From a virus: a stretch of DNA of 42,351 nucleotides. Below, in pieces: positions 375 to 41,934 of this stretch. Location of the stretch: positions 1-42,351 of IMG/VR virus record IMGVR_UViG_3300005617_000504; one strand, given 5' to 3'. The first letter of the stretch is position 1. The number at the start of each line of letters is the position of its first letter. The notes below the pieces were generated by a model. The model ran no database searches and was not told the origin of the DNA. It saw only the letters and a list, made by a program, of their open reading frames with translations. The position numbers and the translations under genes are program-made.

Positions 375-645
375 ACCACCACGCTTCACGCACGAAGACT
401 AATCGCTTCTGTCCACCGGAAGCAAGACACGATACAAAAAGTGGGGCGTTTGCTCAGGGTGAGTTCAAGAATCGTCGCAAGAGCCGTAGCCGCCGAGGTA
501 ACGAGGCGGAATTGTTTTTCGCGCCGAAATCCGCCTCCTCACGTCAGCGGCTACCATTCTTGAACTCACCCTGGGCGTTTGCTAGGCGTGCCCCGTCAGC
601 CGGATACAAAACACCGGTCAGGATGACGTGGTCTTGGTCTGCTGT
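375..645. other. Host flank between CheB gene and phage left end
   Basis: No convincing gene is seen. The segment contains a MITE-like element (455-573). With that element and one copy of its 10-bp duplication removed, a minus-strand frame reads across the junction (…YPADGARLANAPLF…), so it may once have been the end of a coding region, but I do not recognise it. The segment does not encode the missing N-terminal part of the DUF1343 gene found on the other side of the prophage. Confidence 0.5.
455..573. mobile_element. MITE-like element, 18-bp terminal inverted repeats
   Basis: The 119-bp unit starts with CAGGGTGAGTTCAAGAAT (455-472) and ends with its perfect reverse complement (556-573). 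It is flanked immediately on both sides by the direct repeat GGCGTTTGCT (445-454 and 574-583), which fits a 10-bp target-site duplication. The interior contains a second, imperfect palindrome (GTAGCCGC…GAGGCGGA against its inverse near 530-554), so the whole unit could fold into one long hairpin. It is too short to code, so any movement would need a transposase supplied in trans. It lies in the host flank, outside the phage ends. Confidence 0.7.
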
Positions 646-695
646 AAATTCGAATGAGGTACACTACACATTGCAATAGGTTTGATATCGTCGGA
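646..695. repeat. Left transposable end (L), two transposase-site candidates
   Basis: Site 1 is 646-668 (AAATTCGAATGAGGTACACT then ACA). Site 2 is 674-695 (CAATAGGTTTGATATCGTCG then GA), separated from site 1 by 5 bp. Both recur inverted at the right end. In Mu, several transposase-binding sites at each end have different spacing at L and R, and the same asymmetry is seen here (5 bp here, about 100 bp at the right). Binding by the 33693-35822 product is inferred. Confidence 0.75.
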
Positions 696-1100: not shown

Positions 1101-4100
1101 TTAGCTCAGTGGAACGATCAGAAACGCCCCCTGCTCCGCGATCAATTGCAGCCCCAAACCCGAGCTAGGTCCATTCGCGCAATACGTCCCCTCGGTCATA
1201 TCCGCCGTGCGCCCGATATTATAGTCACTCCCCTGCAAACCAGGGGCCTCCAGCACACCGCTTTTGATAACCACACACTCGCTTACTTCTGGCGCCGCCT
1301 CGGACACCCAGCGAAAGAAGTTATCCTCGTCATCAAACCAAAATGCCGCCAGTTCCGGCTCATTCGGGCATCGATCCGCATCATCCGAATCCACCGTCTC
1401 ACGCTTCATTCGTTTCGTGTCCGTCAACCTGATCGCCAGAAAACCCGTGCTCCCGAGATTCACCAGATCGAGCACCTCAGCCGGAACCGCGCTCCAAAAA
1501 TCCGGATCAATCTCCGCCCGATATTCAACATCAATTCGGAAGCTCGCGATCTTGTACGGACAGCCGGTCAGGAAAGCCCCCTTGCTAGCCGCCACGGCCG
1601 TCCAATCAAACCATGCCCCCACCGATCCGAGCGTCCCGGACGGCGGTGCGCCCAAGCCATCCCCATATGCCGCGCTCAACCCACCCGTCGTGCAGATCGT
1701 CGATCGCAACTCCACCAGGTCCACTGTGCGCTCGCCTGTGTAAGAGTATTCCCGCGCCTTAAATAAGATCGGCAAATCCAATCGCACGCGATCCAGCAAA
1801 TTCACCGACTTCACCAGGCGCGAAAACACCTCAGCATACATGATCGAATTCGGCAACGGCCCAAAGCCCGATGCATCCAAGCGCTTGGCCAGCGGGAAAC
1901 AACCAATCTCCCGGCCGCCAAACGCCTCGAAGCACAAATTCTCAAACCGATAATCGTAAAGATTCCCGATCCCGGTCTGGCAGATGATATCCTGCGACGT
2001 AAGCCCGTCCACGAACCCCTCGCACATTGCCCTAAGATAAACCTCCGCCTGCAACATCGAATCGATCACCGCGCGGGTATCGTGCGACTCCATCACAGCA
2101 TTGTTGTCCTCGTAAACCTCGGGAACCAGGTGGCAAAAGAAAAAATGCGGGTAACAACAGCCGAAAGGATTGTCCGGCAAACTATCCACAGACGAGTTAG
2201 TCCCGCTGTCACCCACCTTCACCGTGCATTGCTTGGTGGGGTCCGCCAGGTGCAGCACGTACTCACGCACCGAATTGTCATCCGTCCGGTAATCCTCATT
2301 GATGTCCGGATCCGTCACATACACATTGCGGAGCTGCTGCACCTCACTTGCAGACCAGGTGCTCGGATCCGGATTGACCGACGCCGGCGCATCCGGATGC
2401 GATCGCAGCCTGCTCTTGAGCGTGACCTTGATGACCTGGTCCGGGCTCCAATCCTCCACTACACAGCTCTCGATCTCGTAAGGCGCTTCATACACCCGGC
2501 AACTCTTATAGAACTCCTCGCTGCCGCCCGAGCGATTCGCATTGAGCGTATAGTTATATTGGTCCGGGGCCTCCGGCGCGATGAACTGCGCCTGCACGCT
2601 CATTGGATTCCGAATGGGCGTGAACGTCACCGGATCCAGCTCGATGTTATGATTGTACGCGATGTGCCGCCGCAAAGCCGAGGGGGCTGATCCGCTGTAA
2701 AAATGGCACCGCTGACACCAAGCAAAATAATCGCTGTAAGCATCCGGCTTCCAGATCGAGGTGGCGCTCGGATGGTACCGTTTGGCCTCAATGAACGCCA
2801 CCCATTCATTGCTGAACCCCTTCTTCAGCGCGGCATGCCTGATTCCGTCATAAACGAACACCTGCGCGTCACCCGTGGCTTGGAATTCCGCCTCATTGGG
2901 GCCAGCGACGAACGTCTGATCATTCCCATAAAGTCCACCATCATACGCGATGCGGCCGTTAGTGGTGCGCACGATGTAAGTCTCCCCCTCGACTAAAGCA
3001 TCGGGCGCCAGGTTGTCCAACGGCGGCGCGATGTCCGCAAACATGTCCGCGCGGATGTTGTCCAGCCCGTACGCGAAGCGCTTAAACCGCAGCACACTCT
3101 TGCCCCCCGTCACTTCGTACGAGACCAGGTTCTGTCGGCGCACTATCCGGGTATGATCGCGACAGACCCGCCTGGCCGCGTCGAACACGGGATTATCATT
3201 CACCCATTCAGCAATGTCCCGCACGCCGGCCGCGCCCGCTGGATTGACGATGCAACCGTGCTGGAAAAAATCCTCACTGATCTCCTCCGCGAACGAACAA
3301 TCACGCCCGCGCCCATCCACACCGCCACCGGTGGCTGGGCCGCCGGCCGAGGCCGCCATGCGCGACACCAGATAGGCGTCCCACGGCTGCGGTTTGTATT
3401 CGAGTTGCTCGATGAACTCGAAACCGATCGAGCCCATGCCAATGAACCGCGCCGGCGTAGCCAGGCGCACTTTAAGCGGGGCCGGCGTCGGACAATCCTT
3501 CAGCCAGGCCATGGCCTCAGCATCGCCATTCTGATCGGGCGTCAATTTGAGCGATCTGATAACCTTCTCTCCATCGAGCACCTCGAGGCGGACCGGCTCA
3601 GCCAGATTCTTTGCTTTGGCAAACATCCCAGCCAAGACGAACCCCGGCCGATAAAAAACCTCCGTCGCACCCCCGGTAAACCGCCCGAACGTCCCATCCG
3701 GCACTGAGCTGCCGGCGAACTCAGCGCGCGGATAAAGCTCGAACAAGGTGTCCCCGATCGCCACCCCGAGCGCTGGCGCCAGGTAATACTGCCGCTTGTA
3801 AAACGCCTCATTATCGAAGGCGATCCGCTCGATGTCGAAATCATCCTTCGCGCGTTGGGCTGCTGACCCGCGGAAATCCACATCGAACGCCCATAACGCC
3901 CGCGCCAGGTGCTTGCCATCGGCATGCGCCAATCGCCCTTCGCCCGTATACGGTCCCTCGACCCAATCCGCCTTGGGGAAGACGTCGACGACATAATCGC
4001 AAAGCCCCGTGCCTGTCCCGACGAACACATAATAGGCGAATGGCGCGTCAGCGATCCCGATCACGTGCCCAGCCGCGTGCGCATCGGTGCCACAAGGGCA

Positions 4101-4829
4101 CGACCCCGCGTACGTGATCACCGGTTTATCGTCTACGATCGTCAGCGTGCCATGATGGGCTGGCACGACTACGGCCGATCGCAACCCGCTGAAAAAGATC
4201 TCATAACTGGGGATCCCGAGCCCTGTGGTATCCGTCGCACCACAATTCGAGAGCAGCTCCACCGGAGTGGGGAAAAACCCGCCGTAAGATTTGCCGTGCG
4301 GACTGAACCACGGCTGCACGATGCGAAGGAAATCCTGCGCTGCATCCAAGGCCGGCGTGTTTTGAGCGAACACATCTGGATCGTACGCGCCACGCTGTCT
4401 TTTGCCCGCCTCCCAGATCCCCTCGAGAGGCGGCAAATCCAGCGCCGGCCGCCATTCGATCCGATCTGTCAATCGAACATCCTCTGGATCCACGCCCGGA
4501 TTACCGAATATGAAAGCCATCATGGGATTTGCCAGATTCGCCCCTTCAGGCTCGCCCGGCCCGGTGACCGGCCAGGTCGTGCCCTGATGATGCTCCGGAT
4601 CCAGATGCTGATAAATATCGTAGAGCTCCGCTTGCGGCGGGAAAACAAACCCGCCTGCATCCGGATTGCGGACCTGGCGGAAGAGATTGAACCAATACAT
4701 CACGATCCGCCACGGAATCATTTGGAACGCGCGCAGCCGATCATTGATCGCCCGCGCCAGCTTATTGTGCTGTGTGGACGTGATCGGGTCGCCTGGGGCG
4801 ACATCGATCGCTTTCGTGAAAGTGAGCAT
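1101..4829 (-). CDS. Very large virion protein, probably tail tip or central fibre
   Basis: The product has 1242 residues, is the largest of the phage and is the last gene of the late operon, downstream of the tape measure and distal tail genes. That is where siphovirus-type phages carry their tail-tip or host-recognition protein; no named family is recognised. The protein is unusually rich in Cys for a virion protein. Around residues 705-727 it has a C2H2-like motif (Cys705, Cys708, His722, His727; spacing C-x2-C-x13-H-x4-H). The start is ATG 4829; a TTG two codons upstream (4835) is the alternative. A stop-interrupted small frame ends 2-8 bp upstream. Confidence is high for a gene and moderate for the tail role. 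Confidence 0.75.
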   Translation of the reverse strand: MLTFTKAIDVAPGDPITSTQHNKLARAINDRLRAFQMIPWRIVMYWFNLFRQVRNPDAGGFVFPPQAELYDIYQHLDPEHHQGTTWPVTGPGEPEGANLANPMMAFIFGNPGVDPEDVRLTDRIEWRPALDLPPLEGIWEAGKRQRGAYDPDVFAQNTPALDAAQDFLRIVQPWFSPHGKSYGGFFPTPVELLSNCGATDTTGLGIPSYEIFFSGLRSAVVVPAHHGTLTIVDDKPVITYAGSCPCGTDAHAAGHVIGIADAPFAYYVFVGTGTGLCDYVVDVFPKADWVEGPYTGEGRLAHADGKHLARALWAFDVDFRGSAAQRAKDDFDIERIAFDNEAFYKRQYYLAPALGVAIGDTLFELYPRAEFAGSSVPDGTFGRFTGGATEVFYRPGFVLAGMFAKAKNLAEPVRLEVLDGEKVIRSLKLTPDQNGDAEAMAWLKDCPTPAPLKVRLATPARFIGMGSIGFEFIEQLEYKPQPWDAYLVSRMAASAGGPATGGGVDGRGRDCSFAEEISEDFFQHGCIVNPAGAAGVRDIAEWVNDNPVFDAARRVCRDHTRIVRRQNLVSYEVTGGKSVLRFKRFAYGLDNIRADMFADIAPPLDNLAPDALVEGETYIVRTTNGRIAYDGGLYGNDQTFVAGPNEAEFQATGDAQVFVYDGIRHAALKKGFSNEWVAFIEAKRYHPSATSIWKPDAYSDYFAWCQRCHFYSGSAPSALRRHIAYNHNIELDPVTFTPIRNPMSVQAQFIAPEAPDQYNYTLNANRSGGSEEFYKSCRVYEAPYEIESCVVEDWSPDQVIKVTLKSRLRSHPDAPASVNPDPSTWSASEVQQLRNVYVTDPDINEDYRTDDNSVREYVLHLADPTKQCTVKVGDSGTNSSVDSLPDNPFGCCYPHFFFCHLVPEVYEDNNAVMESHDTRAVIDSMLQAEVYLRAMCEGFVDGLTSQDIICQTGIGNLYDYRFENLCFEAFGGREIGCFPLAKRLDASGFGPLPNSIMYAEVFSRLVKSVNLLDRVRLDLPILFKAREYSYTGERTVDLVELRSTICTTGGLSAAYGDGLGAPPSGTLGSVGAWFDWTAVAASKGAFLTGCPYKIASFRIDVEYRAEIDPDFWSAVPAEVLDLVNLGSTGFLAIRLTDTKRMKRETVDSDDADRCPNEPELAAFWFDDEDNFFRWVSEAAPEVSECVVIKSGVLEAPGLQGSDYNIGRTADMTEGTYCANGPSSGLGLQLIAEQGAFLIVPLS

Positions 4830-4836
4830 TGACAAC

Positions 4837-5040
4837 TTAGGAGCAGCTTGCGTTACGCGAAGTTTGGTCGGCTGCCGGGATCCTATGCTTGGCGCGCCAA
4901 CGCTTCATTCGTTCTCGGGCTTGGCGTCGAACTTTGGTCAGGTTGGCCGCGCGTCAACGCTGATTAGCCCAGCGCACCTTTTCGGGATTACGCCAGGCCC
5001 AACGCCTTTTGTTCTCTCGTTTCTCCCAGGACAATTTCAT
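4837..5040 (-). pseudogene. Small basic phage protein interrupted by TGA
   Basis: From ATG 5040 the frame reads 28 residues including KRRWAWRNPEKVRWAN, then an in-frame TGA (4954-4956), and continues without a break for another 38 codons (LTKVRRQARERMKRWRAKHR) to TAA at 4837. Both halves have the same Arg/Lys/Trp-rich repeat style (x-R-W-R-x-x-N-P-E-K-V-R) seen in small repetitive phage proteins of unknown role. This argues that a single gene has been split by a nonsense mutation. Only the 28-residue front part would be made unless the stop is read through. The tail-tip gene begins just downstream. Confidence 0.4.
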
Positions 5041-5128
5041 CCAGGTTGATAGTTACGCGAACCCATCACCACCATGGGCTCGGCGCCATTTTTTCTTAAC
5101 GTAACCGCGGCTGCCCGATCGCACGCGA

Positions 5129-6643
5129 TTATCCCCCGCACACCCGATCCAACGTCGTGAGCAATTTCTCCGGCGTCACCGGCTTGGACAACACCTCAGC
5201 GGGTTTAGCCTCAGCCAACTCCGCATTGTTATTCGCCCCCGTGATGCAAATGACCTTTATCGCGGGATCGATCGCGCGGATCTGCCGGATCAACGCCACT
5301 CCGCCGATGCCCGGCATCATCAAATCCGTGAGCAATACCGATATGCCCGAGCCTTGATCCCGGAACAAAGCGAATGCCTCCGCTTCCGTCGCCGCGGGCA
5401 ATACCCGATAATCGAACGACTGCAAAAGCGTCCGCGTCAACTCGAGCAATCCCAACTCATCATCCACCAGCAACACCGTGCGCCCCTGGCCCCGCGGCCA
5501 TTCCTGCGGCGCTTCGGTGCGCGAGGCCGGCGCCCGCTCCGACGCCACCGGTAAATACACCGAGAACTTCGACCCGATCCCAGGAATCGATTTCAAATCC
5601 ACAAACCCGTGATGCTCGCGCACCAAGATGAGCGTGTTCCAAAGGCCGATCCCCGTGCCCGCCTTTTTCGTGGTAAAAAACGGCTCGAAAATCTTCCCCT
5701 GCACCTCCGGCGACATCCCCGGCCCATTATCCGCCACACTGATCTCGACGAACCGGCCCGAGATCGAGTCAGCCGGCGCCGTAAGCGGCCGATAATTCTG
5801 CAACGTGACATCATGCGCCTCGATCTCGATCAATGGCCGCTCGGTCCGCGTGCCATTACCCATTAAGGCATCGCGCGCATTCACGCACAGATTCACGAAC
5901 ACCTGATGCAACTGCGTTTCGTTGCCGATCACCAGCGGCAATGGCACCGCCAGCCGCGGGCGGATCTCGATGTGCCTCGGGAACGTGCGCCCGATCAAGG
6001 CCAACAACTCATCCAGGAGCGGGACGATCGGCAAATGCCGTTGCTCAACCCCACCGCCGCGGATCAACGCCGTAAGTTGATCCAGAATCTCCCGGCTCCG
6101 TTCAGCGGCCCCCTGAGCCATGCCCACCAGCCGTTCATTTTCACCGGACAACCCCTCCAATTGGCCCACCGCCATCATGATCAACCCGTTTGTATTCCTC
6201 AGATCATGCGCGATGCCCGTGACGAGCTGGCACATGTTTTCGAACTGGCCGGCCCGGCTCAACTCGATCTTCGATCGGCGCTCGCGCCAGGCGCGCTGGA
6301 TGGCCTCCGCCAGCCGGTGCCGTTGATCTTTGCTGATATAATCCACCGCGCCGGCCTTGAGCGTCTCGACCGCTTGCTCCACGGTAATCGTGCCTGAAAG
6401 CACCAGCGCCGGCATTTCCGGCCGACGTTGCAGCACCAATTTCAACGCCTCCTCCCCATCGAACGATGGCAAACTGAAATCCAACAACGCCACATCCCAG
6501 GGCTGCCTCAGCGCATTTTCGAAATCCCTGCGCGACGCCACCCGTGTCACCTCCGGTTTACAGGGTAACCGATTGAGCGCGCGGACCGTAAGCAACGCAT
6601 CATTGGAATCATCCTCGAGCAATAGGATTTTAAGAGGGGTCAT
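5129..6643 (-). CDS. Hybrid histidine kinase: receiver - kinase - receiver
   Basis: The 504-residue product carries two-component domains. An N-terminal receiver (1-120) has Glu10/Asp11, phospho-acceptor Asp55, Ser83 and Lys105. An H-box (GIAHDLRN, His146) is followed by a HATPase domain with N-box [10 protein letters not shown] (Asn255), G1 DNGPGM, F-box FEPFF and G2 GTGIGL. A second receiver (390-504) has Asp394/Asp395, Asp440, Thr468 and Lys487. All catalytic residues are present. There is no membrane segment or sensory domain, so the N-terminal receiver is the likely input and the protein is cytosolic. It lies in the late operon between distal tail genes and the tail-tip gene, which is odd for a phage. 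ATG 6643 is chosen because the upstream 26 codons derive from a heptamer repeat. Confidence 0.88.
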
Positions 6644-6645
6644 CG

Positions 6646-6735
6646 GGCAGAAGGCGATGTGAAAGGCGAGAGGCAATAGGCGATGGGCGAGAGGTAATCG
6701 GCCCCATGGCCTAGCGCCCATCGCCTAGCGCCTTT
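6646..6735. repeat. Heptamer-type repeat (GGCGATA/GGCGAGA family)
   Basis: Tandem variants of a 7-bp unit (GGCGATG, GGCGAGA, GGCAATA, GGCGATG) lie just upstream of the hybrid kinase start. Related tracts occur at 9636-9660, 12071-12097, 15873-15903, 27066-27092, 30407-30437 and 32113-32152. Confidence 0.6.
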
Positions 6736-6790
6736 GGCCTGCTGGCATCCGAATTGCATTAGAAGATTCACTTGTTTGTTTTGACCTGCC

Positions 6791-6918
6791 GGGGTCGCGC
6801 GCCGGACATGTAAAACTGCCCACCAAAGTCGCGCGACCCCTTTGAATATCAGGCCGATCCGTTGCGTTTAACAGATCGGCGGGCGCGGGACCGAAACGCC
6901 GGAGCTACCGCGCCCGCC
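6791..6918. other. Three consecutive hairpins in an intergenic gap
   Basis: The 321-bp gap between 6643 and 6965 holds three perfect inverted repeats: an 11-bp stem 6791-6801 with 6830-6840 (GGGGTCGCGCG), a 7-bp stem 6853-6859 with 6874-6880, and an 11-bp stem 6878-6888 with 6908-6918 (GGCGGGCGCGG). The last two overlap by three bases. There are no T-tracts, so simple intrinsic termination is unlikely. An RNA element separating tail genes from the kinase gene is possible. Confidence 0.55.
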
Positions 6919-6964
6919 AATGCCTGGCGGTGCCTCAAAACCATTCACGATTTACGCGCTTCGA

Positions 6965-7180
6965 TCACAGCAACGCCATCTGCCCGGCTTTTTGGTCTGC
7001 CGTCGCTGGCGTGAAATCCATCAGCCGTTCCCAAGCCCGCACTTCCGCGCCGGCCATCTCGACTGCCAAACTCGGCGGCTCTGGATCAGCACCAGACAAC
7101 ATTCCAAGTCGCTCCTGAAAGCGATATTCCCGCTCGGCGGCAACCTGGGCCTTCGACCAAAGGTGGTCATTTACGCCCAT
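6965..7180 (-). CDS. Small protein of the tail region, unknown
   Basis: The product has 71 residues (MGVNDHLWSKAQVAAERE…) and is mostly helical and acidic, with no recognised domain. Its start overlaps the end of the preceding gene by 10 bp, which suggests translational coupling. It is the last tail-cluster gene before the hairpin-rich gap and the hybrid kinase gene. Possibly a small tail or assembly factor, inferred only from position. Confidence 0.5.
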   Translation of the reverse strand: MGVNDHLWSKAQVAAEREYRFQERLGMLSGADPEPPSLAVEMAGAEVRAWERLMDFTPATADQKAGQMALL

Positions 7181-7371
7181 CGCGCCACAACCGGCGCCGT
7201 GGATGGCTGGCCACGGCCGCGGCGCGTAGCGCGGCGGATCACACCGCGCGTAGTTGCATCAGTGGAAATGTCCGGTGACGTCTGCGGCTGGAGCCGCTCG
7301 ATCTCCTCATACAAATTGCGCAGATGCGTTGCCAGCACACCGCCGCCGCTTGGAATGGGTAGGTTATTCAT
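7171..7371 (-). CDS. Small protein of the tail region, unknown
   Basis: The product has 66 residues (MNNLPIPSGGGVLATHLRNL…) with a basic C-terminal half. ATG 7371 overlaps the stop of the upstream gene in an ATGA arrangement, and its 3' end overlaps the next gene by 10 bp, so it fits the coupled late operon. No family is recognised. Confidence 0.5.
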   Translation of the reverse strand: MNNLPIPSGGGVLATHLRNLYEEIERLQPQTSPDISTDATTRGVIRRATRRGRGQPSTAPVVARWA

Positions 7372-8234
7372 ACAGCTTCTCCGTAAACGAACTTGTTGAA
7401 CGCTTCGAACGCCCAATATTCCTGGGTGATCTGCCATTGACCGCGCGAGACCGGATCGGTCAACGGCCGCCGTTTCTGCCAGAAAAATCTCTCCAAGTTT
7501 GCCGCATCGATCAGGAGCGCCGTGGGATCATTCGCCAGTGTGGGCTCCAGCGCATTGAGCGTTTGATAAGTGAGCATTTTGCCCACGCGATCGTGACTCG
7601 CCTTGGCTGTAGTTGCATTCACAGCCACCGTCTCGGTTTTGCGCAGGACGTAATGGCTCACGGGAAACGATTGGACCCCTGAAGCCATCGCATCGATCAG
7701 GTTCTGCAGGACCGTCAGATCTTCGGTGCTGATTCCCGGCGTGCCTGTGAGCGAGCCGATAATGAATTCAGACGTCAAATCCACCGGATCGCCGTTTTCG
7801 TCCGTGGTAGTCCGTTGGCCTTCCGCCAGCGCTCGGGTATCGGCCACAAACCGGGCGCGTTTGGTCGGATCCGTAATCTTGAACAACACAGTCTGCACCG
7901 CGGGCAAAGCGAAGGGTTCAATCTCGACGTCATTCCCATCCAGCTTCCAGACGCGCGAGATCGGATCGGACGGAGTCAGGTTCGATTGGGCGCCGGAGCC
8001 ATCCACGACGGCGAATTCCGCCGAGACAATTGCCATCCCATCGAGCTCCTCCGTCACCTCGAGATCCGTGGCATAAGCGAGCAAGCCGCCCGCCTGGAGG
8101 CCAGCCGTGAGGAAAGCCGGGCATTTGCTGGTGGCCCCGCGCCAGGACCGGACCAGGCTCCAGCCCGTGCCCATGCGGAAGCGGCGTTTCGGCCGCTGCT
8201 CCGTCATCTCCAGGTTGCCAGCGAGTTGTTGCAT
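7368..8234 (-). CDS. Putative distal tail protein
   Basis: The product has 288 residues. Its start codon shares one base with the tape-measure stop (TAATG). The sequence is rich in beta-prone stretches (MAIVSAEFAVVDG, TVLFKITDPTKR), with a C-terminal segment ending FEAFNKFVYGEAV. The gene directly after the tape measure usually encodes a distal tail component that links tube and tip. That is the basis for the call; no family motif is recognised. Confidence 0.5.
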   Translation of the reverse strand: MQQLAGNLEMTEQRPKRRFRMGTGWSLVRSWRGATSKCPAFLTAGLQAGGLLAYATDLEVTEELDGMAIVSAEFAVVDGSGAQSNLTPSDPISRVWKLDGNDVEIEPFALPAVQTVLFKITDPTKRARFVADTRALAEGQRTTTDENGDPVDLTSEFIIGSLTGTPGISTEDLTVLQNLIDAMASGVQSFPVSHYVLRKTETVAVNATTAKASHDRVGKMLTYQTLNALEPTLANDPTALLIDAANLERFFWQKRRPLTDPVSRGQWQITQEYWAFEAFNKFVYGEAV

Positions 8235-13385: not shown

Positions 13386-13540
13386 GTCAGCGCATTCCCA
13401 ACGAACGGCACCGATTCAAAAGACATCTCCGCGACCTGCTTGCGGTCCAGCAGTTCGCGCTCATACACCGATTCGTAAACGGCGTCGCCCACCTCGCACT
13501 CGGCGAGCATGCCTCGAAGTTGTTTGAACTTGCTGCTCAT
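13349..13540 (-). CDS. Small protein, unknown
   Basis: The product has 63 residues (MSSKFKQLRGMLAECEVGDA…). The start is in an ATGA overlap with the end of the upstream exported-protein gene. It has an acidic helical front and a basic tail (WRSGRLWRRCK). No family is recognised. Its overlap with the next gene suggests that the group 12892-14400 is translated as a coupled unit. Confidence 0.45.
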   Translation of the reverse strand: MSSKFKQLRGMLAECEVGDAVYESVYERELLDRKQVAEMSFESVPFVGNALTWRSGRLWRRCK

Positions 13541-14400
13541 TGCCGGTTGTAAACCTCTTGCACGTTATAGACCGCCTGGTAGTAAGCAGCCTGCTTCTCA
13601 TTCGGAATGCCGAAACCAAAGCAGTGATAGCTCAAAGCCCGGTCAGTCCACAGCGACGGGTTTCCCGCGCTCGACATCTCCGCGTGAACGATCACTTGCC
13701 CGCCCGCCAGTGCGCCCGCCGCAGCCGCCGCGCTGATCAGAATCGAAGCGCCGTTCTTGTAAATCGCCCTGGCATCAGAACGCCGCGTCGTGACGTAGAA
13801 ACCTCTCCCGGTTGTGTCCGCGACGGAAACCTGATTGGCCACCGTGCCGAGTTCAAGATATGTCGTGTTCGCGTAGGAAATTGGAAATCCTACGATTGTC
13901 GGTCCAACTGAGTAGGCGATGCCCATGCAGTAACCGGACTGCGACGAAGCCGTCCGGTTATAGACCGCCATGTGAAGGTTCGTGATGCTGGTCAACCCCG
14001 ACAGCCCCATTCCAGGCGACGGTGAATTCGGCACCAGATATTTTGTCGTCGTGTTGCCGGTCAACCCGGTAGCTTCCGCGTAGTCAGTTGAAACGAACGC
14101 TACCAGTTGATCGGGAGCGACCATCGTGCTGAACCAATCAACAATGATCGGGATGCACATTGCATTGGTCTGATCTCCCAAATAGATATTTGCCCTGCCA
14201 AGGTAACGGCGCACGTCCCATTTCCGCGTCTGCTGCATGAAGCGAGTGCCAGTCCGGTAGGCTTTACCGGTGATTGTTCCGCTGTTCGTGCCCACGCGCA
14301 CGCGCCACGCTTCCGCCTCCCAGTTGTAGGTGGACACCGGCGGGATTGCTGCGCTCGCGCAGACGACGCTCAGCAGCAGCCAAGGAAGGAAGCGTTTCAT
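13537..14400 (-). CDS. Exported fibre- or lectin-like protein
   Basis: The product has 287 residues. It begins with a clear Sec signal peptide (MKRFLPWLLLSVVCASA, cleavage near residue 17-18) followed by a beta-rich body. The C-terminal end (…FGFGIPNEKQAAYYQAVYN) is of a type seen at the end of concanavalin-like domains in tail-tip proteins of environmental phages. It overlaps the preceding fibre gene by 4 bp. A signal peptide is unusual for a virion protein and suggests export by the host cell. Confidence 0.6.
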   Translation of the reverse strand: MKRFLPWLLLSVVCASAAIPPVSTYNWEAEAWRVRVGTNSGTITGKAYRTGTRFMQQTRKWDVRRYLGRANIYLGDQTNAMCIPIIVDWFSTMVAPDQLVAFVSTDYAEATGLTGNTTTKYLVPNSPSPGMGLSGLTSITNLHMAVYNRTASSQSGYCMGIAYSVGPTIVGFPISYANTTYLELGTVANQVSVADTTGRGFYVTTRRSDARAIYKNGASILISAAAAAGALAGGQVIVHAEMSSAGNPSLWTDRALSYHCFGFGIPNEKQAAYYQAVYNVQEVYNRQ

Positions 14401-15908
14401 CGTTGAATGTTCAGGTTCGGAGTTCCGACCAAGGTCGAGTTGGTTGTCAGGTCGGTGTGCAGATAGATGTAGGAGACGGCATTGGCCTGCGTTTTGATTG
14501 TCGGTTGGCCGCCTGTGCCGCCGTCCTCCCATCCGACCACGCTGTTTGTCAGCTTCACCGTGTAGCCGCCAGTGCCGTCCTGCTGAAAGCAAACCGTGTA
14601 GGTCTTATAAGCGGTCTTGGCAGGAAGATTCGAGAAGGTTGAACTTCCGAGCAGACAGTTATTCGTCACCAAGAGATAGAACGATGCGCCGTTGGTTGTG
14701 CAATCCAGTCCGGTGATGTTCGTACCGCTCCAACCCAAAGCAGTCACGTCCGTCGTGACTCCGCTGCCGCTGCCGGTTGCTGTCAGCGTGCCGTCGTTTG
14801 ATAGCGTCAAGCCACTCAACGTCGCGTTGGTGACCGTGCCGTTCGTTAGAGCCACCAGCACCGCGGGCAATGGAATGTTCTGCAACGTGAATGTTCCATT
14901 TGTCAGAATCGTGATGCTGTTTGAAATCGTGATATGGCCGCCTTTGAGCACCGTGACGTTATTGGTCTGGACGACAATCGTGGTGTAGGTGTTCGTTCCC
15001 ACGCTGCCGTCGTTGCGGGTCATCCAGACCGGCAGCCCGTTCGTCATCGTCAGCGCCTGCCCGTTTGTTCCCGCTCCGAGATTGCGAAGGTGAGTCCCGT
15101 CGTAATAGTAAACATCGCCCGCCGCTGCGCTGAGCGCGCCGAGATCTTTGACGAGTGCCGAGAATCGGTTCGTGTCGAGCGTCCCACTGCCGATCTTGGC
15201 CGCGTCGAGCGATGGCAGATCCGCGGCGATGAGCGCCCGCAAGCTGGCCGCGCCAGTCGTGCCATCGGGAGTCGCGAGCACAAGATTCGAGGTTTGCCCA
15301 CCTGCCGCCGTCACCGCCAACAGCCCACTTGTCGTCACCGGGCTGCCTGACACCGACAACCACGACGGGACCGTCAAACCAACGCTCGTCACCGACCCTC
15401 CAGACCCGGTTGCCGATAGTGTTGTGCCGTCGAATGCGACCCCGGACCCGATTACCACCGCCGAGAGATTCGTGCCACTGTCAGTCCGGACCAACTTGCC
15501 AGGACCGACAACCAACGGCTTTGCATTGGCGTTGAACGTCACCGTTCCAACACTGAGCGGCCCGGTGATCGTCGCGCTGCTATCGCCAGCCGCGAATGAA
15601 ATCGCTGGGCCAACCTTGAAAATTTGGTTGTCATTGTCCCAAGTCAAAGCGCTACTGAACCCGATGCCGTTCGTGCCGATCGCAAATGGTATTCGCCCGT
15701 CCGTATAAGCCGCGCTCTGGCCGAAATGCAGCGTGCTGCCGCTTTTGACCAAGCCGTTGCCAGCGGGAACGATTATGAGATTCAATGCATTGGAATTGGC
15801 GGGGAAAAAGTTGGTTGGCGCGACGACGGCGCCGTTGGTATCCACGCTCACGCTGCGGACCTGTGCAAAAAGGGCGATAGGCAAGAGGCACCAGGCGATG
15901 GGGAGCAT
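14397..15908 (-). CDS. Tail-fibre-like protein with signal peptide
   Basis: The product has 503 residues. After a hydrophobic leader (MLPIAWCLLPIALFAQ) the protein is Thr/Ser/Gly/Asn-rich and repetitive, with the segment SLRALIAADLPSLDAAKIGS typical of phage tail fibres, and many short beta repeats (TNGTFTLQNIPLPAVLVAL, TNATLSGLTLSND). It probably forms a trimeric beta fibre. The leader is encoded by a heptamer repeat tract (15873-15903). ATG 15908 is chosen; the upstream 22 codons come from another intergenic repeat. A receptor-binding role is plausible, but the leader raises the possibility of cell-surface display instead. Confidence 0.65.
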   Translation of the reverse strand: MLPIAWCLLPIALFAQVRSVSVDTNGAVVAPTNFFPANSNALNLIIVPAGNGLVKSGSTLHFGQSAAYTDGRIPFAIGTNGIGFSSALTWDNDNQIFKVGPAISFAAGDSSATITGPLSVGTVTFNANAKPLVVGPGKLVRTDSGTNLSAVVIGSGVAFDGTTLSATGSGGSVTSVGLTVPSWLSVSGSPVTTSGLLAVTAAGGQTSNLVLATPDGTTGAASLRALIAADLPSLDAAKIGSGTLDTNRFSALVKDLGALSAAAGDVYYYDGTHLRNLGAGTNGQALTMTNGLPVWMTRNDGSVGTNTYTTIVVQTNNVTVLKGGHITISNSITILTNGTFTLQNIPLPAVLVALTNGTVTNATLSGLTLSNDGTLTATGSGSGVTTDVTALGWSGTNITGLDCTTNGASFYLLVTNNCLLGSSTFSNLPAKTAYKTYTVCFQQDGTGGYTVKLTNSVVGWEDGGTGGQPTIKTQANAVSYIYLHTDLTTNSTLVGTPNLNIQR

Positions 15909-15970
15909 CCGTGCTAATCCGTGAAATCCGTGTCTCGCTCGATACGGTGCTAATCTGTGAGATCCGTGTT
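15909..15970. repeat. AGACACGGATTTCACGGAT-family repeat, two copies
   Basis: Two imperfect tandem copies read CTAATCCGTGAAATCCGTGT and CTAATCTGTGAGATCCGTGT on the plus strand. They fill the junction between two fibre genes. Other copies are at 16590-16618, 17278-17349, 22498-22556, 24022-24056, 24600-24632, 27385-27502, 30375-30403, 31062-31083 and 32325-32357. Confidence 0.7.
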
Positions 15971-16588
15971 TCATGATTCGCCTGGGATAACGATGTTGAT
16001 CTGCTCGAACTCGGGCGGGCCGGCTACGTTCAATGTGTGATAGAGCCCGGTGTCGGTGTTCTTGAACTGCAGGTTGCCATTTTTGAGCCGGTAATTGTTG
16101 CCATAGATCGGGACCAGGCCGACCACAGCGATCGCCAGATCACCGGGTTGATCGAGTTGGAGCTGCTCCTGGCCGACTGCGCCGACCACCCACAGCGTAT
16201 GATACAAACCGGTATCGATGTTTTTGAGCTGCAGTTTGCCGGCGTTGTATTGGTAATTGGTCCCGCTCACCGGCAGAAACGTGGCCGGGACGTACACTGG
16301 CGACGTCGGCGCGGAGATGATCATCAGATCCCGGATATCGGCCGTGCCATCGCTTTCGGGGACCTGGATCCTGAATTTGTCGCGATTGTTGGTGCCGACT
16401 TGCACCAGATAAATCCCATGATCGAGCACCTGGCTGATCGCGCCATCCTCGTCAGCGACCACAGTGATGATCGGCGCGGTGAGAACGCCGAGCCCATCAA
16501 TAGCCGGGTTGGTTTCGCACAAGAACTTGACGGCTGTGCTCGCACGCGGCTGGTCCGCAGCGTCAATGAATGTGCCGGTTACGGTCAT
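15971..16588 (-). CDS. Fibre or baseplate-like protein with internal duplication
   Basis: The product has 205 residues. The N-terminal third (MTVTGTFIDAADQPRASTAV) looks like an Ig-like or prealbumin-type beta domain. The rest contains two copies of one unit, NYQYNAGKLQLKNIDTGLYH and NYRLKNGNLQFKNTDTGLYH, each followed by a similar strand pair ending in a Gln/Glu-rich strand and Pro-Gly. Such duplications are common in phage fibres and adhesins. No signal peptide is present, unlike the next two genes. It is the first of the three fibre-type genes. Confidence 0.55.
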   Translation of the reverse strand: MTVTGTFIDAADQPRASTAVKFLCETNPAIDGLGVLTAPIITVVADEDGAISQVLDHGIYLVQVGTNNRDKFRIQVPESDGTADIRDLMIISAPTSPVYVPATFLPVSGTNYQYNAGKLQLKNIDTGLYHTLWVVGAVGQEQLQLDQPGDLAIAVVGLVPIYGNNYRLKNGNLQFKNTDTGLYHTLNVAGPPEFEQINIVIPGES

Positions 16589-16589
16589 T

Positions 16590-16618
16590 TAGACACTGAT
16601 TTCACGGATTAACACTGA
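16590..16618. repeat. AGACACTGATTTCACGGAT-family repeat
   Basis: One copy lies between two late genes and also encodes the last residues (ISVNP) and stop codon of the gene at 16602-16859. Confidence 0.65.
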
Positions 16619-16859
16619 TGGGTTTGTCGTACTTGGATCCACCGCCTTCGTAGTGTTGAATTACTTTGCCGAGCCGCATGCGGGCGTCTTCCAGATGGCG
16701 GTAGGCCAGCGTGACATTGGCAAACAACTCACTCCTCGTTTCCCCGTTCAGAGCTGAACCGTTCAGGACAGAATGTTGCTTCAGCGCGTGAACACGCTTG
16801 GCAGTGCTGTCGATGTCCGAGCGCAACAGATCGCAGACTTCCTTTAGGTCATGCTCCAT
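16602..16859 (-). CDS. Candidate Acb2/Tad1-type cyclic-nucleotide sponge
   Basis: The product has 85 helical residues. The C-terminal half (ELFANVTLAYRHLEDARMRL then GKVIQHYEGGGSKYDK) has the pattern I associate with the Acb2/Tad1 helical-hairpin domain of small phage proteins. In that family the proteins bind cyclic signalling nucleotides and block CBASS or Thoeris immunity. ATG 16859 overlaps the gp36-like gene by 11 bp. The family call is from remembered pattern and is not certain; a generic small helical phage protein is the alternative. The last five residues and the stop derive from an intergenic repeat. Confidence 0.55.
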   Translation of the reverse strand: MEHDLKEVCDLLRSDIDSTAKRVHALKQHSVLNGSALNGETRSELFANVTLAYRHLEDARMRLGKVIQHYEGGGSKYDKPISVNP

Positions 16860-17277: not shown

Positions 17278-17349
17278 TTCGAGACACGGATTTCACGGAT
17301 TCTCACGGAGCGATGAAGCCTCTCCGTGAAAATCCGAGTTAATCGGTGT
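17278..17349. repeat. Inverted pair of AGACACGGATTTCACGGAT-family repeats
   Basis: A forward copy (GAGACACGGATTTCACGGAT, 17284 on) and a reverse copy (GAAAATCCGAGTTAATCGGT near 17326) face each other between the gp36-like gene and the exported beta protein gene. The pair could form a hairpin in RNA. Confidence 0.55.
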
Positions 17350-22497: not shown

Positions 22498-22556
22498 CTG
22501 TGAAATCCGTGTCTCATCCGGCTCAGTGTTAATTCGTGAAATCCGTGTCTCATCCA
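22498..22556. repeat. Two AGACACGGATTTCACGGAT-family repeats (reverse)
   Basis: Two direct copies, GTGAAATCCGTGTCTCATCC at 22500 and 22537, separated by about 17 bp. The second contains the stop codon of the large terminase gene. Confidence 0.7.
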
Positions 22557-24021: not shown

Positions 24022-24056
24022 CAATTCCGTGATAATCCGTGTAATCCGTGTCTAGC
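24022..24056. repeat. AGACACGGATTTCACGGAT-family repeat (reverse)
   Basis: CCGTGATAATCCGTGTAATC then CGTGTCTAG, lying between large and small terminase genes. It encodes the final stop of the small terminase gene. Confidence 0.6.
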
Positions 24057-24597: not shown

Positions 24598-24765
24598 TCA
24601 AGACACGGATTTCACGGATGAACACGGATGCCGCCCAGCGCCAGCCCGCCCAGATCGGGCTGGTCGCTGTCTTTGCAATTCGCCGCGCAGACCCAACAAC
24701 CTGGGACGATTGTCTCGCAGCACGTGAACTGCGTAACGGCCGCTCCGCAGTTCAATCGGTTTCAT
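24598..24765 (-). CDS. Small basic protein, doubtful
   Basis: The frame from ATG 24765 gives 55 residues (MKPIELRSGRYAVHVLRDNR…) and ends in a stretch coded by an intergenic repeat (24600-24632). A TTG at 24786 would make an overlap with the preceding stop. Position in a tightly packed operon favours a real gene, but the composition is repeat-like, so it may be spacer. Confidence 0.3.
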   Translation of the reverse strand: MKPIELRSGRYAVHVLRDNRPRLLGLRGELQRQRPARSGRAGAGRHPCSSVKSVS

Positions 24766-25060: not shown

Positions 25061-25573
25061 TTATGAGTCCGTGGCTGGCGCCGGGATCGTCTCGCGGAAT
25101 TTGTGATAGGCGGCTGCCGTATCCGAAATCGGTTCCCTTGCTTCCTTGAGTTTAGCCCTGCGATAGGTCGCGTCGCTGCCGGCGCCGGTCCGGTGCAGCT
25201 CGCCGCGGTTGCTCATATCGAGTAGATTGACAGAGACGCTATTGAGCCGGTCTTCGAGCTGTGGGGCCGCTTTTCTGATCTCCACGCGAACGGCCGCTGC
25301 ATTCATTGCTCCGACTGATTTGCGAAAGACTTCGCGAATGGCGTCCACGACTTTGAAACGCCGCTGCGGTCGGGGACCGACCGCGGTCCGTTCGGCTTTC
25401 GGCTTGCGGCCGGAGTTCGGTTTGCGATGGGTGCCGTTGCGGGCTATTGGCATCAGCGCCGGCAAAGCCTGCCCGTCGTCGCGGAAGAGCTCACGCAGTT
25501 GCTGGCTCATCCGTTGCAGTTCCGCGATGCGCGATTCGATGGCCGCGATTGTTCCCTGGATATGTTCGTTCAT
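25061..25573 (-). CDS. Protein with coiled-coil and winged-helix-like region, unknown
   Basis: The product has 170 residues. An N-terminal helix (IAAIESRIAELQRMSQQLRE) suited to a coiled coil is followed by a basic linker (RKPNSGRKPKAERT) and a region RRFKVVDAIREVFRKSVGAM with NSVSVNLLDMSNRGELHRTG, which looks like a winged-helix DNA-binding fold. ATGA overlap with the response regulator gene indicates coupled translation, so the two may act together. The function is unknown. Confidence 0.55.
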   Translation of the reverse strand: MNEHIQGTIAAIESRIAELQRMSQQLRELFRDDGQALPALMPIARNGTHRKPNSGRKPKAERTAVGPRPQRRFKVVDAIREVFRKSVGAMNAAAVRVEIRKAAPQLEDRLNSVSVNLLDMSNRGELHRTGAGSDATYRRAKLKEAREPISDTAAAYHKFRETIPAPATDS

Positions 25574-26034
25574 AATCTCTCTGTCGATCCGTTCGCTGCG
25601 GTTCGGTTGATGCGCTGTGTGTCATGGGCGATGCGGGCGGCATGCTCCAAACCCAGCAGGCTCTCTTTGTGCAAGACGGCGCGGCAGATCGCGCCGAAGA
25701 TCTGTTCGCCATCCAGGTCGTCACGCCCTTTCACGATGTAACCGGCCGCGCCGGCCCGGATGGTCTCGGCCACGAATTCCGCACTGTCCTGGCCGCTCAC
25801 GATCACAATGGAGGCGGAGCGTGTGATCTGGGAAAAGGTGTTGAATGTGTCCGGCCAGCGTGAGTCGGGCAGGGTCAGGTCCAGGAGAATGCACCAGTAG
25901 TCCGTAGCCAGCGCCTGATGTATGCCCGAGGTGAGTGTGGAGGCGACGTCCACCTCGGCAAATGGGGCGAGGCGCTCGCGCAACGCGGCGGCGTAGCCGG
26001 CGTTGTCTTCGATTAATAGGAGCCGTTCTTTCAT
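25570..26034 (-). CDS. Response regulator receiver protein
   Basis: The product has 154 residues. A single receiver domain has all key residues: Glu9/Asp10, phospho-acceptor Asp52 (ILLDLTLPDS), Ser80 (IVSG) and Lys102 (YIVKG). About 30 residues follow with no recognisable output domain. It would accept phosphate from a histidine kinase; the phage's own hybrid kinase (5129-6643) is a candidate partner, though host kinases are equally possible. It overlaps the 25061-25573 gene by 4 bp. Receiver proteins are rare in phage late operons. Confidence 0.85.
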   Translation of the reverse strand: MKERLLLIEDNAGYAAALRERLAPFAEVDVASTLTSGIHQALATDYWCILLDLTLPDSRWPDTFNTFSQITRSASIVIVSGQDSAEFVAETIRAGAAGYIVKGRDDLDGEQIFGAICRAVLHKESLLGLEHAARIAHDTQRINRTAANGSTERL

Positions 26035-27344: not shown

Positions 27345-27698
27345 GGTCTGTTTGGGGTAACCGCAGATGAACGCTGATGAACGCAGATCGGGACTGACAC
27401 TGATTTCACGGATGGGCACGGATGGGGGCGGGAGCGGGTTCCGTGATAATCCGTGGAATTCGTGTCTGCGAGGCTTCCGTGATAATCCGTGGAATCCGTG
27501 TCTGAAATCGACGGCTCGGATGTTGGTGGATGATCTGTTGGCTCCTGGACCGAGCCGCGAGCTGCAGGCAGCAGCGCCTCCTGTGAAGCTCTGCAAAACC
27601 GTTTGGGATGTTCAGCCAACATGCGAGACAAGTCTCGCATGGGGCGCCACCCCACGGTGGGAATTAGGAGAAGGGCTGAGGGCTAAAGGCTGAAGGAA
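27345..27698. other. Repeat-filled intergenic region
   Basis: This 354-bp gap holds no supported gene. It contains one forward and two reverse copies of the AGACACGGATTTCACGGAT family (27385-27502), short 8-mers AACGCTGATG/AACGCAGAT, and a perfect 10-bp hairpin CATGCGAGAC-AA-GTCTCGCATG (27620-27641) just downstream of the dTMP kinase gene that could end transcription, although no T-run follows. Confidence 0.55.
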
Positions 27699-30212: not shown

Positions 30213-30376
30213 GTGGCGGCCTGGCTGCTCGCGGGTTGGCGCGCGCATACGCGCGCGGGCGGGAACAGGTCCGCCGGCTTAATCAGGCGCGTGTGGATGA
30301 GATGAAGGCAAACGTGCTGAACGAGCTGCGCAAGCATCGCGCTGAGACGCGAAAGAATTGGAAGGGCTCACGATGA
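30209..30376 (+). CDS. Small basic protein, unknown
   Basis: The product has 55 residues (MSGGLAARGLARAYARGREQ…), Arg-rich and helical. It begins in an ATGA overlap with the regulator gene and ends in another with the following frame, so it looks like a coupled member of the early operon. No family is recognised. Confidence 0.45.
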   Translation: MSGGLAARGLARAYARGREQVRRLNQARVDEMKANVLNELRKHRAETRKNWKGSR

Positions 30377-30684
30377 GACACGGATTTCACCGATCAACAC
30401 GGATGGGCCTATCACCTATCGCCCATCGCCTATTGCCTGATGTTGATTTTGGCTGGGGTAAGGAGTCGGCGATCAATCAGGCCCGGTTGACTCAGCCGGG
30501 CCAGTACGACTTTCGCTGGATTTTCTCTCAGCCAAGACCTTGCTGGTCGGGCATTCCCTCACCGCGAAGCGCGACAACCACCCGCACCCCAGCCCACCAC
30601 GGCCCGCGCAGCGCCTGGCTGCGCGCGGCCAGGGCGGGAAATATGAGTCACCGGCGAGACGCCGGTGCCGCCCTGTCCAAATGA
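30373..30684 (+). CDS. Repeat-bearing frame, possible gene
   Basis: A 103-residue frame starts in an ATGA overlap and ends in an ATGA overlap with the next gene. Its first 22 residues are coded by an AGACACGGATTTCACCGAT repeat and a heptamer tract (30375-30437), and its C-terminus by a GCG-AGA-CGC hairpin (30649-30667). Only the middle (FGWGKESAINQARLTQPGQY, DFRWIFS) looks protein-like. It may be a small gene extended by repeats, or spacer kept in frame. Confidence 0.35.
   Translation: MRHGFHRSTRMGLSPIAHRLLPDVDFGWGKESAINQARLTQPGQYDFRWIFSQPRPCWSGIPSPRSATTTRTPAHHGPRSAWLRAARAGNMSHRRDAGAALSK
30407..30437. repeat. Heptamer tandem repeat (CCTATCG)n
   Basis: CCTATCA, CCTATCG, CCCATCG and CCTATTG units lie in the early operon inside the 30373-30684 frame. 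This is the reverse-strand form of the GGCGATA tracts of the late operon. Confidence 0.65.
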
Positions 30685-32326: not shown

Positions 32327-32370
32327 AGACACGGATTTCACGGATTAACACGGATCCATTGAGCCCATGA
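32323..32370 (+). repeat. AGACACGGATTTCACGGAT repeat forming a 15-codon frame
   Basis: The repeat is inserted between two genes so that it creates a mini-frame MKTRISRINTDPLSP. Its ATG overlaps the stop of the upstream gene and its stop overlaps the start of the downstream gene. It may let ribosomes pass across the repeat by reinitiation. Confidence 0.5.
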
Positions 32371-41354: not shown

Positions 41355-41934
41355 GACGCGCGGCTTCAACACGGACCTCACGGTGATCCGGGTCGAGGGC
41401 TGGACACGCGACCTCTGGTTCGACCAGACCGAGCTGCCCTGGACCAATCCGTCGCCCAACATGCGCAATCTGACCGAAGCAACTCTCTACCCGGGCGTGG
41501 GCCTGCTCGAGAGCGCGGTTTCAATCGGTCGCGGCACCGACACGCCATTTGAAGTTATTGGCGCGCCTTACATCGAGGACGTGAGGCTCGCGGCGGAGTT
41601 GAACCGGGCGGGATTGCCCGGAGTGCGGTTTGTGCCGATTCGTTTCACGCCCAAGGCGAGCGTGTTCCAGGACAAAGCGTGCGGCGGGGTCCACATCATA
41701 ATCACGGACCGTGACGCCCTGAACGCGGTGGACGTGGGCATGACCCTGGCGCTGACCTTGCAGCGGCTCCATCCAAACGAGTTCGCCCTGGAAAAAGTGC
41801 AACCCCTGTTGCGGCACACATCGACCATTGATGCCATCCGGGCGGGCAAATCACTAACGGACATCAAGCAATCCTGGACGAACGATCTTAACGAATTCAA
41901 AAAACGGCGGGAGAAATTCCTGATTTACAAGTGA
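41353..41934 (+). pseudogene. DUF1343 (NamZ-type muramidase) 3' fragment, host
   Basis: The 193 residues (NTDLTVIRVEGWTRDLWFDQ…) match the C-terminal half of DUF1343 proteins: LPWTNPSPNMRNLTEATLYP, SIGRGTDTPFEVIGAPYIED and the terminal KKRREKFLIYK. NamZ removes N-acetylmuramic acid from the non-reducing ends of peptidoglycan fragments. The N-terminal half, about 200 residues with its signal peptide and part of the catalytic site, is missing: the frame enters directly from the phage right end. The missing half is not present at the left flank either. Confidence 0.8.

Follow-up and report, generated by a model that had tools for sequence, protein, structure and literature searches.

The gene at positions 5129..6643 on the minus strand of the window (the whole 42,351-nt stretch of DNA analyzed, from IMG/VR virus record IMGVR_UViG_3300005617_000504) is a real open reading frame encoding 504 aa from an ATG at 6643. 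An in-frame ATG upstream, at 6721, would give an alternative product of 530 aa; homology begins at 6643. The encoded protein is a hybrid histidine kinase of the order REC-DHp-CA-REC, as indicated by its Pfam domains, its invariant residues, and an AF2 model with LvrB as the top match. Pfam found two Response_reg domains (9.8e-33 for the protein, best stretch at residues 390-498). The second Response_reg stretch, together with the alignment, places an N-terminal input receiver at residues 5-123 (6275..6631), with phospho-acceptor D55 and with K105. It is followed on the same strand by the αS helix and a DHp domain carrying H146 in the motif GIAHDLRN (6044..6262; alignment and AF2 model), by the catalytic ATP-binding domain HATPase_c (5543..5926; Pfam, residues 240-367, 3.9e-18), and by a C-terminal receiver at residues 390-498 with D440, T468, and K487 (5150..5476; Pfam and alignment).

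We assessed residue invariance in an alignment of three viral homologues, namely the window kinase, the kinase of sister phage G002, and a kinase from contig L048. Invariant in all three are D11, D55, and K105 of the first receiver; H146-D147 and N150 of the H-box, which include the D/ExxN phosphatase motif; N255 of the N-box and D305-G307-G309 of G1; F319-E-P-F-F; G329-T-G and G333 of G2; and D394-D395, D440, T468, and K487 of the second receiver. The translation therefore contains each hallmark of a hybrid histidine kinase: the H-box His, the N, G1, F, and G2 boxes, and a fused receiver with its D, T/S, and K. Pfam and the alignment thus agree with the initial annotation, which described a complete receiver-kinase-receiver protein with every catalytic residue intact and no membrane segment; no long hydrophobic stretch was seen in the translation. 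Its further remark that the protein has no sensor is misleading and gets the mechanism wrong, as the N-terminal REC is the input domain in Rec-controlled kinases.

The prototype of these Rec-controlled kinases is LvrB of Leptospira, in which phosphorylation of the N-terminal receiver was shown experimentally to bring the αS helices into a coiled coil and free the catalytic domain (PMC13269768). The αS lengths of Rec-HKs are reported to favor multiples of seven (PMC13269768). By sequence and AF2 model, the window kinase is of the LvrB type: its REC lies directly N-terminal to DHp-CA and is joined to it by a helix, with no other sensor. LvrB (PDB 8vc9) is its best PDB match both by sequence and by the fold of the AF2 model (pLDDT 71), in which residues 105-165 form one continuous helix. 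Over residues 1-366 the alignment to the NCBIfam LvrB model is collinear; the score for LvrB family NF047466 is 129.4 bits, below the curated cut-off of 500 bits. The two proteins share the N-terminal REC, the continuous α5/αS helix, the DHp-CA core, the lack of a membrane segment, and a heptad-compatible spacing. LvrB, by contrast, lacks a C-terminal receiver, is encoded on a bacterial chromosome, shares only about 27% identity with the window kinase, and has an αS helix two heptads longer. From the receiver Lys to the phospho-accepting His (K105 to H146 in the window kinase), the spacing is 41 residues in all three viral kinases. LvrB has 55 and most host Rec-HKs have 48 or 55, values equal to the viral 41 modulo 7; a parallel host series runs 43/50, and one host exception (49) fits neither. 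Judged from these spacings, the viral kinases stay in register and have the shortest linker in the main heptad series.

The surrounding DNA is that of a Mu-like transposable phage. Its minus strand encodes a Mu I-like protease, Portal_Mu, terminase, the major head protein, and the tape measure, and its plus strand encodes MuA/MuB-like transposition proteins and Gam. This assignment draws on the MuA/MuB-like genes, the Mu-type portal and protease, the terminal inverted motifs, and the host DNA outside them. Transcription of the early operon runs away from the late operon, in contrast to phage Mu. Verrucomicrobia genomes, chiefly of subdivision 3, contain relatives of the head protein.

The early-side phage end (41216..41360, plus strand) was located by G001, an otherwise identical phage contig that diverges exactly at 41360. 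The same inverted motif occurs at both ends (CGATATCAAACCTATTG ... TGTAGTG-ACCTC-TTCGAA), its late-side copy (TGTAAATTCGAATGAGG...) lying at 643..690 (plus strand). Because of the G001 divergence and the shared motif, we placed the late-side end at ~643. The two ends enclose the kinase, which therefore lies within the phage, about 4.5 kb from the late-side end. It is on the minus strand, like the Mu-like late genes among which the initial annotation placed it. Outside the phage, positions 1-389 of the window belong to a host CheB methylesterase gene; a search of 320 genomes of the host order with this flank, run without a positive control, gave no match. Beside CheB, at 452-576 in the host flank, is a MITE-like nested inverted repeat with arms of 27 and 36 nt. 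No 5-bp target duplication was found, the sequences at the two ends being TCTGC and GCGCG, and since these flanks are unlike, the contig is probably assembled from different insertions.

Directly downstream of the kinase is a large minus-strand gene (1101..4829) whose cysteine-rich product measures about 1242 aa; the sister phage has it at 75% identity and in unchanged order. The product has no family or PDB match and no usable fold match (AF2 pLDDT 30). The kinase had been described as lying between distal tail genes and the tail-tip gene; the tail-gene setting is borne out, and the tail-tip label is unproven, there being no matches to support it.

Among phage relatives, the 37-kb contig G002 (head protein 93% identical) is the closest that is long enough to show the kinase site, and it is the sole independent phage with same-site conservation; the near-identical contigs G001 and G004 stop short of the site. 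In G002 the kinase occupies the same site, flanked by the same neighbors, and is 50% identical. By the Nei-Gojobori method, dN/dS between the two phages is about 0.28 for the kinase (dS 1.56) and 0.11 for the adjacent large gene (dS 1.61), with dS near 1.6 being close to saturation. Given this dN/dS and a dS like its neighbor's, the kinase has probably travelled with its neighbors and been maintained under purifying selection. Its GC3 fits the phage's late genes. Three contigs whose head proteins are 42-54% identical lack the kinase (G006, 41.6 kb; G007, 38.8 kb; G021, 37.3 kb). The kinase was thus gained or lost within the wider group and is dispensable. No relative turned up when the kinase alone was searched by exact patterns; profile and HMM searches did find relatives. 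Many BLAST "phage" matches proved to be mislabelled bacterial contigs, for example with glnL/atoS neighborhoods.

Trees were built from the kinase core and the C-terminal receiver. The window and G002 kinases form one clade on a long stem among kinases of the host order (98 SH-aLRT in one tree, 100/99 in another), so that the proposed comparison with host kinases sets the phage pair apart from all those sampled. The host phylum has many chromosomal REC-HK-REC proteins of 500-560 aa, several of them encoded next to a single-receiver gene whose product is about 150-180 aa long. No close host kinase was sampled, the best being about 36-40% identical. The trees fit an old rather than a recent capture from a Verrucomicrobia host.

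A third viral kinase, 487 aa with the REC-HK-REC order and 32% identical to the window kinase, is encoded on the 7.5-kb contig L048. Its gene immediately follows tail-like genes, with a terminase gene of unrelated type nearby, in another phage family; the contig also has a homologue of the window gene at 13537-14592. In relatives of L048 (85-90% identical terminases), the kinase is absent from the available sequence, and in four of them the flanking tail gene is also present, with no kinase between it and the terminase gene. The L048 kinase joins the phage pair on a long branch with weak support (92/73), which suggests a shared viral kinase lineage. A fourth candidate, L050/G025, was set aside, as it has several long kinases aboard and looks like a bacterial fragment.

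Several known systems resemble the window kinase in part. NCBIfam CckA and PRK13557 models, of the DHp-CA-REC type, cover residues 120-500, but all matches are far below curated cut-offs, and CckA is membrane-bound, has PAS sensors, and is far longer. The chromosomal REC-HK-REC proteins of Verrucomicrobiota (L167, L168, L169, and L128) share the three-part architecture and the length of 500-560 aa; they are 36-40% identical at best, and usually have a longer αS (48 or 55 versus 41). Kinases of eukaryotic DNA viruses (EsV-1, Feldmannia virus, and giant viruses) are virus-encoded and some are hybrid, and scattered "histidine kinase" entries come from uncultured tailed phages (BFVD; PHROG 5982, 20458, and 10912), but these have another domain arrangement and other hosts. 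Among the viral kinases found, none is described as co-inherited at a fixed site in the tail region of a transposable phage, and we found no use of the phrase "phage-encoded histidine kinase" in the literature searched. The CheY-like CDS-30 of Alteromonas phage V22, listed as a class II AMG, is likewise a signaling receiver carried as an auxiliary gene by a tailed phage, but is a 149-aa single-receiver protein with no kinase (PMC7289586). Viral histidine kinases are thus already known; the novelty here is that the kinase is a Rec-controlled hybrid and that a transposable phage has kept it at a fixed site.

With moderate confidence, we take the gene to be functional and resident in a Mu-like Verrucomicrobia phage, encoding a soluble Rec-controlled hybrid kinase that would act as a relay or drain in a host phosphorelay. 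This reading rests on the intact domains, the position inside the phage, the conservation, the purifying selection, and the Rec-HK architecture with its spacing. The protein is best read as a relay step because it has a receiver at each end and no output domain, and its most likely role is that of a soluble relay plugging phage development into the host phosphorelay. The proposal in the initial annotation that it rewires host phosphorelays during lytic growth is plausible on the same domain content, that is, input and output receivers with no DNA-binding or enzymatic output.

Activity, partners, direction of phosphoryl flow, and timing are what we infer in the following scheme. D55 of the N-terminal receiver would be phosphorylated by a host kinase or phosphodonor, whereupon the continuous α5/αS helix would become a coiled coil and free the CA domain, as in LvrB. 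The freed CA domain would phosphorylate H146; D440 in the C-terminal receiver would take the phosphoryl group next and hand it to a phosphotransfer protein or regulator of the host. H146 could double as a phosphatase (HDLRN). While the phage late genes are on, an extra relay step, or a drain, would thus be inserted into the host phosphorelay.

The likeliest phage-encoded partner would be a lone receiver protein of 154 aa encoded near the terminase genes (25570..26034, minus strand), the only other receiver found in the phage. Its phospho-acceptor residues are intact, it is 63% identical in G002 (dN/dS 0.20, dS 1.40, Nei-Gojobori), and the AARIAHD motif of its C-terminal tail is kept in both phages. 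The kinase and this conserved receiver echo the host pairing of REC-HK-REC with a single-receiver gene. It remains a candidate, and the pairing is a guess, because the two genes are about 19 kb apart. The lone receiver is not claimed here to be a truncated kinase. Although it has an AHD motif and is similar to host REC1 domains, its K-to-H spacing of 35 is off the heptad series.

The flanks of the kinase bear on a second reading, which we hold to be possible but distinctly less probable: that the gene is a moron for lysogenic conversion, under its own regulation and expressed from the prophage, altering host behavior to the host's benefit. Unlike its packed neighbors, the kinase has ~320 bp of structured non-coding DNA upstream and ~290 bp of non-coding DNA downstream. 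Within the former, between the last tail ORF and the kinase, is a conserved structured element (6780..6938, minus strand) recognized by conservation, folding, and inverted repeats. Its hairpins have arms at 6875-6888/6908-6921 and 6791-6801/6830-6840, with a further hairpin in the middle. Over 92 bp it is 94.6% identical to G002; although non-coding, this stretch ranks near the top of the 92-bp windows in the genome pair for conservation. It folds better than shuffles (MFE z = -4.2; z = -2.4 in the sister phage), and in its third stem pairing is kept despite changed sequence, that is, compensated. The element matched no Rfam family above threshold, and its hairpin loop sequence occurred in 0 of 320 host genomes. 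L175 was rejected as a second carrier of the hairpin because its 20-nt match falls in a coding region of an unrelated phage. A 38-nt inverted repeat immediately preceding the kinase start codon (6664..6740, minus strand) is not conserved in the sister phage.

The element may control the kinase separately from the tail genes, and this keeps lysogenic conversion alive as an explanation. So do the accessory nature of the gene, missing from distant relatives and from between the same terminase and tail genes in L048 relatives, and its derivation from a host signaling family. Against it, the kinase is on the late strand among late genes, and no sigma-70-like promoter was found in 4600-7600, a scan that covers Verrucomicrobia promoters poorly. 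No terminator-like site was seen at the kinase borders.

The initial annotation also raised recent capture, in which a host kinase was passively inserted and has no phage role. The host order is rich in close architectural homologues that could have supplied such a gene, but we reject this origin as very unlikely: the 50% identical sister copy at the same site, its dN/dS of 0.28, and a dS equal to the neighbor's all speak against it, as do the long stem, the phage-like GC3, and the lack of a near host relative. A passive insertion was expected to be missing from close relatives and to group tightly with one host gene; neither is the case.

Slightly less probable still is that the kinase is made late, travels in or with the virion, and resets signaling in the host cell at infection. 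Its distal tail gene setting here, and its place adjoining tail and terminase genes in L048, would suit such delivery, but operon position is weak evidence and no signal, fusion, or virion-association motif was seen. That the kinase is a host gene outside the prophage, on a contig that does carry host signaling DNA in the CheB of its first 389 bp, we reject as the least credible reading of all, given that the phage end motif separates CheB from the kinase, that an independent phage repeats both the gene order and this motif, and that Mu-type phages insert almost at random.

It is unusual for a Rec-controlled hybrid kinase to be maintained by a phage and co-inherited at one fixed place. Known routes by which phages reprogram their hosts are proteases, sigma factors, quorum sensing, and toxins; this kinase, if active, would give a phage a means of reading or driving a phosphorelay of the host with no need for a membrane sensor. 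To our knowledge, hardly any phages of the host phylum have been studied. Phosphotransfer profiling in vitro could test the idea directly, given the simple architecture and the conserved lone receiver. More speculatively, and with rather low confidence, Verrucomicrobia phages may own a specialized short-linker REC-HK-REC lineage that passes from one phage family to another, unrelated one and comes to rest next to tail genes. In the Mu-like genus, this kinase would pair with the lone receiver as a phage-owned phosphorelay timing late development or lysis to host state.

Elsewhere in the window, short repeats of AGACACGGATTTCACGGATTAACACGGAT and its complement are dispersed in about a dozen copies, mostly at gene junctions and some of them paired. 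They lie at 15904-15972, 16591-16629, 17282-17320, 22519-22551, 24022-24054, 24601-24639, 27395-27504, 30376-30414, and 32327-32365.
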